The notes beneath the pieces are model-generated. The model was not told where the DNA came from and did not search any database. It worked only from the letters and a program-made list of their open reading frames with translations. The position numbers were made by a program, and so were the translations under genes. Below, piece after piece: positions 13,234-20,149 of a stretch of DNA of 45,560 nt (the stretch's first letter is position 1; each line of letters begins with the position of its first letter). Source of the DNA: Candidatus Omnitrophota bacterium (GTDB lineage Bacteria > Hinthialibacterota > Hinthialibacteria > Hinthialibacterales > JAKPRU01); the NCBI GenBank assembly GCA_029570205.1, contig JAKQSI010000043.1:1-45560 (forward strand), written 5' to 3'.

Positions 13234-15306
13234 TCAGTACGCGCCTTTGCCGAAAATCACCACAGGAATGGTCTTGATCAGAATGATTATGTCGAACAAA
13301 AGGGATTGGTTCTGAATGTAGTAGAAGTCATATTCCAGATTGGCATGAAGCGGGAGGTCTTTCCGTCCGAGGATCTGCCAGAGTCCGGTAATGCCCGGTT
13401 TGACCTTCAGACGCTGCCGCTGCCAGGCCTCGTAATTCTGGACGATGAAAAGCATTTCCGGCCGGGGGCCGACCATGCTCATCTCGCCTCGCAGGACATT
13501 CCACAGTTGGGGCAATTCATCCAGGCTGGTTCGTCGAAGCCATCGCCCGATGGGGATGATTCGCGGATCGTCGGGGTCAATGGGCGCCTCCGCATACTCA
13601 TCCACATCGGCGTGCATGGTGCGGAACTTGTACATGGTGAACGGACGTCCATTCAGGCCGATACGCTGCTGACGGAAAATGGCCGGTCCGGGAGAACTGA
13701 TACGGATCATCGCGGAGATAATCGGGATGAACGGCAAGGTACACAGGCCCATCACAAGGGATAAGGCAATGTCCATGCAGCGTTTTCCGAATTGCTGTGC
13801 CCTGGACAGACCGGCGGAGCGAAGAACCTTGATCGGCAACCCTTCCAGGTCGGATAACCCCGCCTGATCTGCGATTACCCCGAACATGTCGGTGACCACG
13901 CTGAATTGACGGACCGTTCCCTTTTCCCCGCAGGCGACAACGAGGTTCAGAAGATCATGCTTGGTCATAGCCGGATCCGCGAAAAAGACTTCATCAGCAG
14001 GGAAAGTCTGGATCAATTCCGGCAGCGAGCCGGTAGGCCCAAGAACCGTGGCCGGGCCGATCTTTGTTCCCGAATCCGCCGTATCGTCCACAAATCCCAG
14101 GATACTGTATTTCTTATGCGGATGCCGATGGAGGCGGGTGACAACTTTCTGCCCGAGTGATCCCGCGCCGACCACCAGGGCATTGACCCGCCCGATCCCT
14201 GTCTCCAGCATGGAACTCTCGATTCGGTTCCAGACCACTCGCGAAATGGTCAGGCAAATAAACGCATAAACCGCCATGATTCCCATCACGGAACGGCCCG
14301 GATCCTGCTCCTTGAACAGGAAGGCCACCGCCATGGATGAAATGACAAACAGAATAACCATTTTGACAATCGAAGCCATCTCCTCCAATAGCGTCGGGGT
14401 CAGATGGCGACGGTACAGGTCCATGGAGGCGCAGATCACCACCCAGGTAATGACAATCATCGGAAGCATGTACAGGTAGGGTTCAAAAGGATTGATCTGC
14501 TTGGGAAATGACTCATTGAAATACCAGCGGGTCCAATAGGCTCCCAGCCAGGCAATGGAGGCCATGATACTGTCCAGGACCACCAGGCTGCCGACACGAA
14601 ATGTGAAGATCAGGTTGCCGAGGACATATCGTCTCCACAGTCTTCTCGGCTCCAGAAGAAGCCGATACAACCATTCCATCCCCCTTTTTCGCATCCACTC
14701 CGGGGCGCGGCTGAACTTCTCGGCACAGTAATCGAACAAACCGCCTACTCCCCAAGCCACGGGAACATTAAGATCCTTAAGATAATCGCGAATCCAGAGT
14801 TCCTGTCGGGGAGCGCCCATCCCCACAAGAAGGACATCCGGTTTTGCCTGTCGAATTTCATCAACGACCTTGCAGTCTTCTTCCTCCTCAAAGAAACCGT
14901 GATGACACCCGGCGATTTGCAGATCGGGGTATTCGGCGGCGAGTCGCTGAGCAGCGCGTTCGGCGATACCGTCCTCCCCGCCGAGCAAATAGACTCGATA
15001 CTTCTTCGCGGACGCCAATTCGCAGAACTGGGGAAGGAGATCGCCCGCATTGACCCGCTCGGGAAGAGGCCGGTCGAAGACTCTGGAGGCCCACACAACC
15101 CCCATCCCGTCGGCGTACACGAGGTCCGCTTTGGAGATCGCCTCCCGATAGGCCCGGTTGGACCAGCATTTGTTGACACAGTCTGCGTTCAAATAGGCGA
15201 TCTGATGCGGGGTCCCGGAAGAGACAAACTCCTCCACCCGTTGCAGAAACTCGTCGGTGGTCAGGGAATCAACTTCAATACCGAGAATACGACTTTTTGG
15301 AGCCAT
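13234..15306 (-). CDS. Bifunctional WecG/TagA/CpsF glycosyltransferase and polyprenyl phosphoglycosyltransferase
   Basis: Two complete enzymes are joined in 690 residues. Residues 1-235 form a WecG/TagA/CpsF domain: NADCVN (40-45), the likely catalytic Asp66 in YADGMGVVW, GMGAPRQELWI (162-172) and GVGGLFD. Residues about 240-690 are a polytopic polyprenyl-phosphate hexose-1-phosphate transferase. This part has four membrane helices (about 242-262, 277-297, 312-331, 339-358), a Rossmann-like domain (NALVVGAGSLG, 375-385) and the C-terminal catalytic domain with SSPGPAIFRQQRIG, FRTM, the Asp-Glu pair 596-597 (TSLDELPQLWNVLRGEMSMV) and GITGLWQ. The second part loads a sugar phosphate on undecaprenyl phosphate at the inner membrane. 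The first family normally adds the second sugar. Confidence 0.93.
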   Translation of the reverse strand: MAPKSRILGIEVDSLTTDEFLQRVEEFVSSGTPHQIAYLNADCVNKCWSNRAYREAISKADLVYADGMGVVWASRVFDRPLPERVNAGDLLPQFCELASAKKYRVYLLGGEDGIAERAAQRLAAEYPDLQIAGCHHGFFEEEEDCKVVDEIRQAKPDVLLVGMGAPRQELWIRDYLKDLNVPVAWGVGGLFDYCAEKFSRAPEWMRKRGMEWLYRLLLEPRRLWRRYVLGNLIFTFRVGSLVVLDSIMASIAWLGAYWTRWYFNESFPKQINPFEPYLYMLPMIVITWVVICASMDLYRRHLTPTLLEEMASIVKMVILFVISSMAVAFLFKEQDPGRSVMGIMAVYAFICLTISRVVWNRIESSMLETGIGRVNALVVGAGSLGQKVVTRLHRHPHKKYSILGFVDDTADSGTKIGPATVLGPTGSLPELIQTFPADEVFFADPAMTKHDLLNLVVACGEKGTVRQFSVVTDMFGVIADQAGLSDLEGLPIKVLRSAGLSRAQQFGKRCMDIALSLVMGLCTLPFIPIISAMIRISSPGPAIFRQQRIGLNGRPFTMYKFRTMHADVDEYAEAPIDPDDPRIIPIGRWLRRTSLDELPQLWNVLRGEMSMVGPRPEMLFIVQNYEAWQRQRLKVKPGITGLWQILGRKDLPLHANLEYDFYYIQNQSLLFDIIILIKTIPVVIFGKGAY

Positions 15307-15445: not shown

Positions 15446-18400
15446 TTACTCCCACACCACCCCAATCCCCATCTCCCTCTCGATTCGCTCTGCCAGGGAA
15501 CGGATGTGATCCCGGACAGCGTTCTCCACTTCCGGTGAAGACAAGTCTGCGTCCCTGCCGAACTGCAGGCGCGTGTAATTTCGATAGGAGGGTATCCCGT
15601 TCACATCAATAACCTGTCCTTCGGCATTCAGATCGAGCAGGCGGATAACGACCTCCCCGACAGCCTCCCGCCGTTCGATTTCAACCCGGACCTGCGGGTA
15701 CAAACGACGGTATATCTCACGCACCTGATCCGCGCCTTCGGGGTTGTTGACATTCAGCCGGTCTCGCTCAATGGCGAGAGAAGGCGCGGCAATCGCAATC
15801 CCGCGAGAAGAAAGGATTTTCACGAGGTCGGCAAATCCGAATTCGGGCGGCCTTGGCCGGTTGTTCTGTTTCCTGCCCTGCTTTTCCCACTCGGCCATCT
15901 TGTCCAACCAGGTTTTGTATGGTTCTGATCGGCAGAAATACCCGTCTTTCAGTTCCTGCAAAAATGCAAAAACCTCCGGTTCGCCGGCGAAAATGCCGAC
16001 ATTCAGCAGACCCCGCCCGGCCCGCGCTTTCCGTGCCTGGTCGAAAAGGTTCTCGTCCGCTTTTTGCCAATTCCACAGAACATGCCCCCGGTCAGGACCG
16101 TCCGGGGCAACCAGGATCGGCGCATAAGGATTATCGCGGATGAGGGTCGGGATCACGAGCGGAACAAGAGAGCCGAGAGCCTGTTTCAGCCGAACCATTT
16201 TCGAAATGGTCTGAGCAGACTTGGTGGGCGCATCGGCGAAAATAAACAGGACAATGCCTCTATAGCCGCGAAGCGCCCGGGACGCGGTCAGATGCGCATC
16301 GCCATCGCCGAGTCGCTCGGCTTGAATGACATACTCAACAGAGAATCCGTGGTCCTCGTTGATTTCACTGCGCTGAAGCGACTCCGCGATTTCATCCCGG
16401 TTTTCCGCACCGACGATAACAACCACCCGTTTCGCGTACGGGGTCATGTTTCGAAGGCTCAGGAGCAGCATGTTGTCCCCGAAAAAGAGGCGGTGTTTCT
16501 GACCGTAGCCGCCGACCTCTTTCGCAATGCGCGTTCCCAGACCGGCCGCAGCAACAACCACGGCGGCCTCACGCTCCCCACAGATTTGAACAATTTCCCC
16601 CGCAAGTTCCAGGATTTTGGATTCCTCTTCCGCCGTGATGGACCGCCCGGCAGCCGCGTGAATGCGGTCCAGTATCTCCATCCGTCGCCGGTGCACCAGC
16701 AGCCCGGTCATTCCCCACGGACGTTCATCATCCGAATGCAGGTACGCGGCCATTTCCCCGAGTACACAATAGATACCGTAGAGCAGCCGCAGACCCAGAG
16801 TCTTCCGTGTTCGATCCAGGGCAAGCAGGTGTTCCACCCGGTCGCGAATCTGAAGAAGTTCTTGGAGGTCTTTTTCCGAATACAGAGGATCTTTCTCGCA
16901 GCCCAGGCTGTCCAACCCGGCGCGTTCGGACAGGAGAATCCAAGCCCTGACGGCTTCGCTCCAACTCTCCAAATGAGGAGAACGGCTTTCCGCCTCGCGA
17001 TGCCATTGGACAGTCTTGCGGATACCCTCGGCGATTTTCGTTTTGGGCCGGTATCCGATCAGCTGTTCGGCCTTGGAGATGTCGGCGCAGGTCAGCGGAA
17101 CATCCCCCAACTGTTCGGGAAGAATCTCCACCAGCCCCCTGGACTGCAATTCCTGTATGAGGGATGAAATCTCTTCATCCGGCAATTCTTTTGGATCACT
17201 TTCCAGATGGATCACCCCCAGGGAATCGGCGATCAGGAGAATCAATTCGCGGACACTGGTGGTATCGCATTCGCCAAGGTTGATGATTTCATTCCAGTTT
17301 TCGCGTCCGGCAGAGGCACGGATCGCTTGAAGAATGCCGTCGATGATATCGTCGATATAAGTGTAGTCGCGTTTGAATGAGCCATCGCCATATAGAGGGG
17401 CGGGCTTGCCCTGTCCCAGGCTTTCAATGAATTTCCGAACGGCCATGTCGGGCCGCCCGCCGGGACCGTAGACCGTGAAGAACCGCAGGCCGGTGACGGG
17501 GAAACCATACAGCCGGTGATAACAGGAGGCTTGCAGTTCATTCGCTTTCTTGCCGGCTGCATAAGGTGACACAGGGTGATCGACCGGCTGAGTCTCCGTG
17601 AACGGATATTGTTCACTTCCGCCATAGACCGAGGAGCTGGAAGCATAAACGAAATTTTTAACAGAGAATCTTCGGGCCATCTCCAGCAGATTCTGTGTAC
17701 CCAGGATATTTGTGGTGACATACAGCGGCGGGTCCTGGATGGAGGGACGTACCCCGGCTCGCGCGCCCAGGTGAACGATCTGGTCGATCCGTCGCGAAAG
17801 GAAAATCCGTTCCAACAGGCTCAAGTCCCGAAAATCGCCTTCAATCAGTTCAAAAGCCGGATGGTCCAGCATGGGCCGGATGTTTTCGTATTTCAGGAAC
17901 GGATTGTAATAGCTGTTGAAATCATCCAGGACAATGACGCGATGGCCTTCCTCCAAAAGGCGTTTTGCGAGATGAGAACCAATGAATCCCGCTCCGCCTG
18001 TGACCAGAAAGGTCTCCCCGGTATCGGAATCCGGCAGAGCATTCCGACGCAAACGGATTCGCCGACAGGCCACATTTCGCTGCTGCAATGCATGGCGTTC
18101 AAGTTTCTCCCAGTTTTTGTCCCGGAAAGCGGCGTTTTCCTGTGAGCGCAATTCGGCGGCTGTGCGCTGTTCCCAGAGTTCCTTGTGATCGGACGGTCGA
18201 GCAGGCGGGTGCAGAAATCCGGCCCCATCCACGGAATGGTTCCGCCGAACAGCTTGAGTGGTTTCATCAACCAGGAACAGATGAAAACTCGGCAGTCTCT
18301 CCGGCGAAACCGCAGCATTGTCTGCAAGAGAAATAAGGTGGCCTGTGAACTCCCTGTCTTTCTCGGTCGGCTCCCAGGGAGCGCTTGAATCCAGCGCCCG

Positions 18401-20149
18401 GCATTTCCGCGCCCACAATTCCGTCAGTTGTTCGCGAAGGCCGGCGGCATCTTTTCCCGCGGTTTCACAGAACCATTGGGCGGCACATTCGGAAAGGCTT
18501 CGCTCCTGCTCGGCGCGGTAGAATTGAATCAGGCTGCGCTTGAGAGACTCGAATCGGTCCTGTTCCACAAGAACCGTCACAACACCGCCCAGACCCGCGC
18601 CGGTAAGCGAAGCGCACGCGGCTCCGTTTTCCCGACAAACATCCACAATTCGGTCCAGCAGCGGATGCCCCGCGCCATACGCGCCGGTCTGATATTCCAG
18701 CTGCGCATTTCGGACTCGCTGTTCATCGCCGGAGCGAAGATCCGCTATGAGATTCCGAAGATACTCATCGGATATATCGTGCCGTTTGGGTGCGTAATTC
18801 CCGCGTGAGTCTTTTTCGATGATGCGATCCCCATCATGTCCCAGGTTGACCAGCCTTGCCGCTTCATCATAACGTCCTTCGGCCAGAAGCCGCGCCCATC
18901 GGGTACTTCTTCGGCATTCCGAAAGCCCGTAGAGCGCAACGCCACGCAGGTCGATGCTGGCAGGACAGGGCCGGTTGCCGAAATAGGTCTCGCGGAGAGA
19001 TCTTACATCAATGTCTATATCTCGACCGATTCTCTTGAGACTGTTTTGAATCCGATCAATATGCATTTCAATTTCGGTGAAACGAATCGAGCACGGCAAG
19101 CGAAGCAGGGCGCGATAGATCAACTCCGGCAGGAAGCGGTCCGGATGGATGTCCGCCAAGTACCGTGTCCGGGCCACAGTCTGGGCATCGGCTCCCACTT
19201 CGAGCAGCGCATTCAGAACGAACGGGAAGGCGATTCGATAGGCGAAAACCCGCCCGCTGTAACCGATACTCTGAGCGCCCTGAAGTTGATGAGATGTGAA
19301 GGAATCGACGATCACCGGAATATAATGAGGTGGAAAGGAAACACAGGTCGGGGCGATGGTGTTTTCCTCGATCACCGGAGAGGCCATGATCCGATTGCGC
19401 CTGCCGAAGATCATCGTGGTCTGGTCACCAAGGCCGGTACGGCTCCCGGCAAACCATTCCGCCTCCTGAGCGCAGATCACCGCCTTTCGTTTCGTCAACC
19501 GCAGGCCGTTCACCGCCACAGCGGCCAGCACAGAGACCACACACAACGCATGGGAGGAGCTTTGTCCTGTCCCGATGGGAATATCGCCCGCCACGAACAA
19601 ATCCGCTCCTTTCGGTTCGATGCCGGGGAACCGGTCCAGGACCGATAGAAAAGCTCCTTTCACATAGTCCGCCCAAATCGTTTTTCCTTTCCCGACCGGT
19701 TCCCGGTCAGCCGGGGAAAAGGATATCTCCGGGAACTGGGAATTCGTGTTTCGGATATGGACAACGGCATCTGTTCGGGGGGCAACGACAGCCGTCATTT
19801 CGGACTCGTCGGTTGTGGCGTTATACCAGCCGCCCTGGTGATCGACATGATGGCCTTCCCAGTTGATTCGGGATGGGCATCCGACCAGCCAGACTTGGGT
19901 CTGCGAATCAAGCGATGCGCAGGCGCACTCCAGGGCACGGAGATATAGCGCGGCGCGTCGCTGAAGAATCGTCGGGTCGGACCCGAAAGTCATCTGCATG
20001 AACTCGCGAAAGGAAGCATCGGACAGAGATAGAAGATCCCGCCATTCGGCAATGGAACGTCGATACGCCTCCATGGAATCGAAGATATCCATTTCGGAGC
20101 GGGGACCGGGATCGGGGATCAGGAGCAGCAGATCGGGATCAATGAACAT
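15446..20149 (-). CDS. Trifunctional GHMP sugar kinase, UDP-hexuronate-type 4-epimerase and GlmU-like nucleotidyltransferase
   Basis: One 1567-residue reading frame holds three enzymes. Residues about 85-550 are a galactokinase-like GHMP kinase: SRINWEGHHVDHQGG (93-107), GDIPIGTGQSSSHAL (188-202), the likely catalytic Asp242 in GLGDQ, and SLTGAGLGG (514-522). Residues about 712-1050 are a short-chain epimerase: TGGAGFIG (717-724), SSSSVYG, the Tyr863/Lys867 pair and VYGPGGRPDM, most like UDP-glucuronate 4-epimerases. Residues about 1194-1480 are a nucleotidyltransferase like GlmU: AAGLGTRIA, Lys1218, QAERLGDGDAH, the Asp of FADAP and LNVGIF. Helical linkers of about 150 residues separate them. 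A stop codon directly precedes the ATG in frame, which fixes the start. The activities would convert a free sugar to a nucleotide sugar and its C4 epimer. Confidence 0.9.
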   Translation of the reverse strand: MFIDPDLLLLIPDPGPRSEMDIFDSMEAYRRSIAEWRDLLSLSDASFREFMQMTFGSDPTILQRRAALYLRALECACASLDSQTQVWLVGCPSRINWEGHHVDHQGGWYNATTDESEMTAVVAPRTDAVVHIRNTNSQFPEISFSPADREPVGKGKTIWADYVKGAFLSVLDRFPGIEPKGADLFVAGDIPIGTGQSSSHALCVVSVLAAVAVNGLRLTKRKAVICAQEAEWFAGSRTGLGDQTTMIFGRRNRIMASPVIEENTIAPTCVSFPPHYIPVIVDSFTSHQLQGAQSIGYSGRVFAYRIAFPFVLNALLEVGADAQTVARTRYLADIHPDRFLPELIYRALLRLPCSIRFTEIEMHIDRIQNSLKRIGRDIDIDVRSLRETYFGNRPCPASIDLRGVALYGLSECRRSTRWARLLAEGRYDEAARLVNLGHDGDRIIEKDSRGNYAPKRHDISDEYLRNLIADLRSGDEQRVRNAQLEYQTGAYGAGHPLLDRIVDVCRENGAACASLTGAGLGGVVTVLVEQDRFESLKRSLIQFYRAEQERSLSECAAQWFCETAGKDAAGLREQLTELWARKCRALDSSAPWEPTEKDREFTGHLISLADNAAVSPERLPSFHLFLVDETTQAVRRNHSVDGAGFLHPPARPSDHKELWEQRTAAELRSQENAAFRDKNWEKLERHALQQRNVACRRIRLRRNALPDSDTGETFLVTGGAGFIGSHLAKRLLEEGHRVIVLDDFNSYYNPFLKYENIRPMLDHPAFELIEGDFRDLSLLERIFLSRRIDQIVHLGARAGVRPSIQDPPLYVTTNILGTQNLLEMARRFSVKNFVYASSSSVYGGSEQYPFTETQPVDHPVSPYAAGKKANELQASCYHRLYGFPVTGLRFFTVYGPGGRPDMAVRKFIESLGQGKPAPLYGDGSFKRDYTYIDDIIDGILQAIRASAGRENWNEIINLGECDTTSVRELILLIADSLGVIHLESDPKELPDEEISSLIQELQSRGLVEILPEQLGDVPLTCADISKAEQLIGYRPKTKIAEGIRKTVQWHREAESRSPHLESWSEAVRAWILLSERAGLDSLGCEKDPLYSEKDLQELLQIRDRVEHLLALDRTRKTLGLRLLYGIYCVLGEMAAYLHSDDERPWGMTGLLVHRRRMEILDRIHAAAGRSITAEEESKILELAGEIVQICGEREAAVVVAAAGLGTRIAKEVGGYGQKHRLFFGDNMLLLSLRNMTPYAKRVVVIVGAENRDEIAESLQRSEINEDHGFSVEYVIQAERLGDGDAHLTASRALRGYRGIVLFIFADAPTKSAQTISKMVRLKQALGSLVPLVIPTLIRDNPYAPILVAPDGPDRGHVLWNWQKADENLFDQARKARAGRGLLNVGIFAGEPEVFAFLQELKDGYFCRSEPYKTWLDKMAEWEKQGRKQNNRPRPPEFGFADLVKILSSRGIAIAAPSLAIERDRLNVNNPEGADQVREIYRRLYPQVRVEIERREAVGEVVIRLLDLNAEGQVIDVNGIPSYRNYTRLQFGRDADLSSPEVENAVRDHIRSLAERIEREMGIGVVWE

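Follow-up and report, generated by a model that had tools for sequence, protein, structure and literature searches.

A WecG/TagA/CpsF glycosyltransferase fused to a large monotopic phosphoglycosyltransferase in Candidatus Hinthialibacterota: a probable bifunctional initiator of surface polysaccharide synthesis

The stretch of DNA analysed here (the window, 45,560 nucleotides) encodes on its minus strand a protein of 690 residues in which a WecG/TagA/CpsF domain of glycosyltransferase family GT26 is followed by a large monotopic phosphoglycosyltransferase (Lg-PGT). The gene, the parts of its product and its upstream neighbor are listed below.

13234..15306, minus: whole fusion gene, a single open frame from the ATG at 15306 to the stop (690 residues; stop included in the coordinates)
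14626..15129, minus: WecG/TagA/CpsF (GT26) domain, PF03808 match to residues 60-227 (228.9 bits)
15109..15111, minus: predicted catalytic Asp66 (TagA Asp65), from alignment to 7mpk; invariant
14602..14715, minus: WecG C-terminal appendage, residues 198-235, with R206, R215 and R222; directly precedes TM1
14203..14598, minus: four transmembrane helices, residues 237-368, from hydropathy and model
13822..14187, minus: DUF, a CoA_binding_3-type Rossmann domain, residues 374-495, from PF13727 and model
13237..13803, minus: monotopic PGT catalytic domain including the reentrant helix, residues 502-690 (PF02397, residues 508-684)
13516..13521, minus: predicted catalytic Asp596-Glu597 pair, invariant over nine fusions
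15446..20149, minus: upstream neighbor of 1567 residues with GHMP kinase and SDR epimerase/dehydratase domains

Profile searches supported both halves of the protein. The TagA-like domain occupies approximately residues 1-235 overall and was also recognized by TIGR00696 (NCBIfam; residues 55-230, 163.8 bits against a cut-off of 69). The remainder of the protein was matched by TIGR03025 (NCBIfam) from residue 244 to 690 with 416.1 bits against a cut-off of 295.55, covering positions 2-445 of the 445-position profile, while the WcaJ and WbaP models matched below their cut-offs. Pfam placed PF13727 at residues 294-456 (49.4 bits) and PF02397 at residues 508-684 (217.5 bits). Hydropathy analysis detected hydrophobic segments at approximately 226-259, 273-299, 302-335 and 336-362, plus a reentrant-helix segment at 509-539, and the predicted structure placed helices at 237-262, 274-294, 306-330 and 338-368, followed by a long one at 502-537. 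The Lg-PGT feature set (four transmembrane helices, PF13727 DUF, reentrant helix and Asp-Glu pair) is thus complete, and the DUF includes the region that mediates dimerization in WbaP (PMC10942596). An earlier note on this DNA had described a WecG/TagA/CpsF domain, with its catalytic Asp, upstream of a four-helix PGT in one protein. Each element of that description was confirmed: PF03808, PF13727 and PF02397 lie in one 690-residue frame, D66 aligns with TagA Asp65, and the hydropathy segments agree with the helices of the model.

Alignment to TagA indicates that its active site is largely retained. TagA Asn39, Arg83, Gln167, Glu168, Arg205 and Arg214 correspond to N40, R84, Q168, E169, R206 and R215 of the fusion, and TagA Asp65, Thr37 and Arg221 correspond to D66, Y38 and R222. 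Over nine aligned fusions D66, N40, R84, Q168, E169, R206, R215, R222 and D596-E597 are invariant. For TagA, the proposed base is Asp65 and the proposed role of Thr37 is to position the donor sugar (ManNAc); activity requires Arg221 and the C-terminal appendage, which also binds the membrane (PMC6493773). The Thr37 position is occupied by tyrosine in all fusions with data, and other GT26 proteins vary here as well; judged from these alignments, the tyrosine would bear on the donor sugar and not on GT26 membership. Because Tyr38 replaces a donor-contacting residue, the donor of the WecG domain is probably not ManNAc. A comparison of two species of the genus gave a dN/dS of 0.068 over the whole gene and of 0.062 over its WecG part, indicating that neither half is decaying and that both are under purifying selection. 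The enzyme therefore looks complete on its WecG and its PGT side, as far as sequence can tell.

The monomer model (mean pLDDT 86, pTM 0.58) superimposes in its WecG part on TagA (7mpk/5wb4) with a target TM-score of about 0.95, and its PGT part matches WbaP 8t53 and PglC 8g1n. Residues 219-226, in the appendage at the junction, and residues 474-483 fall below a pLDDT of 50. R222 lies about 15 residues ahead of the TM1 helix, and the appendage runs on directly into TM1 in all aligned fusions. The even number of transmembrane helices (four) fits a cytosolic location of both catalytic domains. Their mutual placement was not fixed by the model, since its pTM of 0.58 rules out reading domain geometry from it and the appendage at 219-226 is of low confidence. 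The two PGT sites of the WbaP dimer are separated by 77 A and point away from the dimer axis (PMC10942596); therefore, closeness of the sites in the fusion cannot be assumed.

The 1567-residue neighbor is located 139 bp upstream of the fusion, and another genome of the genus (L008) keeps the two side by side. Its GHMP kinase domain is galactokinase-like and its C-terminal third has only a weak nucleotidyltransferase match; it is possible that this protein supplies an NDP-sugar. No recognizable Wzx/Wzy genes were found among the neighbors tested, and the neighbors differ between families. Elsewhere in the window, an AIR-carboxylase-like protein (PF00731; 10610-11386, minus) is encoded between TPR/coiled-coil and T2SSG-like proteins, a gene run that is kept within the genus (L008 and L013).

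To describe the distribution of the fusion we labeled the families of the small, uncultured phylum Candidatus Hinthialibacterota f1 to f5 (14 genomes, Candidatus Hinthialibacteria bacterium OLB16, L021, included). Several relatives in this phylum carry the NCBI name Omnitrophota. The fused frame crosses the junction in 10 of the 14 genomes, namely in all members of f1, f2 and f4, one of which ends at a contig edge but includes the junction. That nine further genomes carry the fused frame, uninterrupted by a stop where the halves join, excludes an assembly artifact, a frame error or a chance occurrence. In the single f3 genome the frame is broken by shifts near the wecG-pgt junction (L014:5560-5680); these look like base-calling errors, with a true split as the alternative. 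The three f5 genomes carry separate wecG and pgt genes in the same order and on the same strand as in the fusion. Assuming that translation begins at the first shared ATG, the two genes use different frames and overlap by as much as 85 bp, at the following positions.

L021:5652-5736: f5 wecG/pgt overlap, 85 bp
L024:5651-5735: f5 wecG/pgt overlap, 85 bp
L025:1901-1985: f5 wecG/pgt overlap, 85 bp

Outside the phylum, whole-protein or profile searches of about 1,400 genomes from seven other phyla did not find the fusion. The samples, each given the phylum name of the genome at its center, comprised 201 Chloroflexota, 246 Planctomycetota, 249 Pseudomonadota, 240 Verrucomicrobiota, 40 Sumerlaeota and 199 Acidobacteriota genomes, together with two overlapping Bacillota samples of 249 and then 398 genomes. 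The E-value cut-offs were stringent (1e-65 to 1e-110) and most runs scored just the top few candidates of each genome, so that rarity holds for this sample and sensitivity, and fusions with a small PGT, in reverse order or of low identity could be missed. The method did flag an in-frame neighboring wecG/pgt-type pair in Chloroflexota: the match spans query residues 6-690 in one frame and consists of two genes with a TAG between them. Listeria was likewise rejected as a second source, its matches to query residues 1-690 being two adjacent genes, pgt then wecG, and in four long PF03808 frames from other phyla a PGT domain was not detected. Two of these four can be described by sequence: a Chloroflexota protein (L119:1447-3504, minus) seems to have a C-terminal WecG domain behind a GT9-type-looking domain, and an Eisenbergiella protein (L114:217-2235, minus) an N-terminal WecG domain ahead of a GT4-type-looking one. 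Within this survey the exact GT26 and Lg-PGT fusion is uncommon.

Phylogenetic analysis of the two halves gave trees that agree in their grouping: both place the f1 and f2 fusions together, next to f4, f3 and the unfused f5 genes. For WecG, the f1 and f2 fusions form one clade (98/91) that f4, f3 and f5 adjoin (93/84), while the PGT tree unites f1-f5 (SH-aLRT 98) with Sumerlaeota as the nearest group. Across the 40 genomes of these closest PGT relatives, the best PGT match never reaches into a WecG domain; in one of them wecG lies about 94 bp upstream of pgt. Both trees would be compatible with f5 having split a fused gene or having retained an older state. Given that the f5 genes overlap in another frame, one frameshift would fuse them. 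The fusion probably arose inside Candidatus Hinthialibacterota by joining the frames of an overlapping wecG followed by pgt, and the simplest history would run from neighboring genes through overlapping genes to a fused gene.

As a PF03808 search of the phylum showed, the ten genomes that carry the fusion, and no others, also encode a second WecG-family protein (about 547-561 residues).

L004:1480-3132 (G000:C20:99394): PGT-less paralogue in the genome of the window
L100, L109, L150, L157, L162, L163, L165, L167, L168: PGT-less paralogue in the other nine genomes

In the two members tested, the WecG family match is followed by approximately positions 14-254 of the 445-position TIGR03025 model, which correspond to the four helices and the DUF without the PGT catalytic domain. 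In the WecG tree the domains of the paralogue group in a clade of their own (90/92), away from the fusion, so the paralogue looks like the product of a separate joining event. Its dN/dS of 0.11-0.13 indicates that it is maintained, and this purifying selection together with the separate clade rules out a broken copy of the fusion. The match to TagA Arg221 is lost in all ten paralogues (replaced by E, D, G, V, Q or K) and that to Asn39 in nine of ten, while the Arg221 equivalent is kept in all fusions and stand-alone relatives with data. Loss of WecG activity in the paralogue is a prediction only, since the protein retains the catalytic Asp and has changed least in its f4 copy. WbaP dimerizes through a hairpin swap of its Lg-PGT DUF (PMC10942596), and the paralogue may be a dimer partner or a regulator of the fusion. 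By this analogy one could imagine a two-component initiation complex, a heterodimer of fusion and paralogue joined through the DUF hairpin swap in which the pseudo-enzyme subunit regulates or positions the PGT; we consider this rather unlikely. The conserved, half-sized companion gene itself looks new.

Taken together, the results suggest that the protein is bifunctional and initiates synthesis of a lipid-linked (Und-PP) surface polysaccharide, a reading to which we assign a probability of roughly 0.78; we infer the two activities, their order, the membrane activation and the route of fusion. With an NDP-sugar as donor, the C-terminal Lg-PGT would load sugar-1-phosphate onto undecaprenyl phosphate; the second sugar would then come from the N-terminal GT26 domain, placing the first two membrane steps in one chain. 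Extension of a UndPP-linked monosaccharide by the second sugar is the presumed role of WecG-family enzymes, and HfsJ, the WecG homologue of Caulobacter, acts after Lg-PGT initiators (PMC11340318). The TagA appendage must be ordered at the membrane to complete the active site (PMC6493773), and in the fusion TM1, right behind the appendage, should hold it there permanently. Since the appendage completes the active site at the membrane and TM1 directly follows it, the fusion probably keeps the glycosyltransferase in its membrane-bound, active form near freshly made acceptor. Against this reading stands a mismatch between Lg-PGTs, which are dimers (PMC10942596), and TagA, whose monomer is active (PMC6493773); the oligomeric state has to be reconciled.

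Whether the two sites hand over their intermediate is a separate matter. The earlier note had proposed direct transfer between an enzyme for sugar one and an enzyme for sugar two; domains, residues and topology fit the pairing, while direct transfer is not established by a model with a pTM of 0.58. The fusion might only co-localize the two enzymes or fix their ratio, with the WecG domain drawing its acceptor from the membrane pool and no hand-over taking place. We give this explanation even odds. The undocked catalytic domains of the model (pTM 0.58; residues 219-226 below a pLDDT of 50), the outward-facing WbaP sites 77 A apart (PMC10942596) and the sister genomes that work with separate proteins all speak for it, but a loose tether would not need the continuation from appendage into TM1 that is conserved in all aligned fusions.

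Other explanations would deny one half of the protein its activity or its attachment. One half could be regulatory, for example a WecG domain that senses a nucleotide sugar while the PGT alone is active, as the degraded catalytic residues of the PGT-less paralogue in the same genomes and the tyrosine in place of Thr37 might suggest. The remaining WecG catalytic residues of the fusion are, however, invariant and the WecG part has a dN/dS of 0.062, which makes this improbable. Production of the two parts as separate proteins, through internal initiation or processing, would recall the two overlapping genes of f5 if that state is taken as ancestral. We regard it as the least probable of these explanations and very improbable, because the junction stop is absent in ten genomes and because the f5 start ATG, being in another frame than wecG, would be out of frame in the fused genes. 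A bifunctional initiating enzyme remains our preferred reading.

Such a protein is a natural Rosetta-stone link, showing which glycosyltransferase comes after which PGT, a pairing that is usually hard to assign. It also offers one protein for testing membrane-linked hand-over of a polyprenyl intermediate, with the overlapping wecG and pgt of the sister genomes as the unfused control. The covalent joining of the activating appendage to a membrane anchor provides, in addition, a test of the TagA membrane-induced activation model. O'Toole, Imperiali and Allen are said to have counted glycosyltransferases in 2021 among the common fusion partners of monotopic PGTs (monoPGTs) and to have proposed co-localization.

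Proteins in which a functional domain is attached to either terminus of a monoPGT form a recognized class, the Bi-PGTs, as stated in PMC10942596 where it cites O'Toole 2021. The PF03808-PF02397 combination proved uncommon in the sample (10 of 14 genomes in its own phylum, none in about 1,400 elsewhere), but fusion to monoPGTs as such is known. A literature search for the exact GT26 and Lg-PGT pairing returned no description, which does not exclude an earlier one, and the pairing looks new within a known fusion class. As in Bi-PGTs, a functional domain is joined to a monoPGT, here in a single frame in ten genomes; the partner is a GT26 domain and the PGT is of the large form. With the large monotopic PGTs WbaP, WcaJ, EpsZ and HfsE (TIGR03025) the fusion shares the four transmembrane helices, the PF13727 DUF, the reentrant helix and the Asp-Glu domain, to which it adds the N-terminal GT26 domain with TM1 directly behind the GT26 appendage. 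With the GT26 enzymes TagA, WecG, HfsJ and EpsA it has in common the fold, the equivalents of D65, N39, R83, Q167 and E168 and the appendage arginines; unlike TagA, it has tyrosine for Thr37 and is anchored by fused helices instead of peripheral binding. A pathway with separate proteins is found in Caulobacter, where HfsE, PssY or PssZ as Lg-PGT initiator is followed by the WecG-type second glycosyltransferase HfsJ (PMC11340318); what Caulobacter does with separate proteins would in Candidatus Hinthialibacterota be carried out by one chain.
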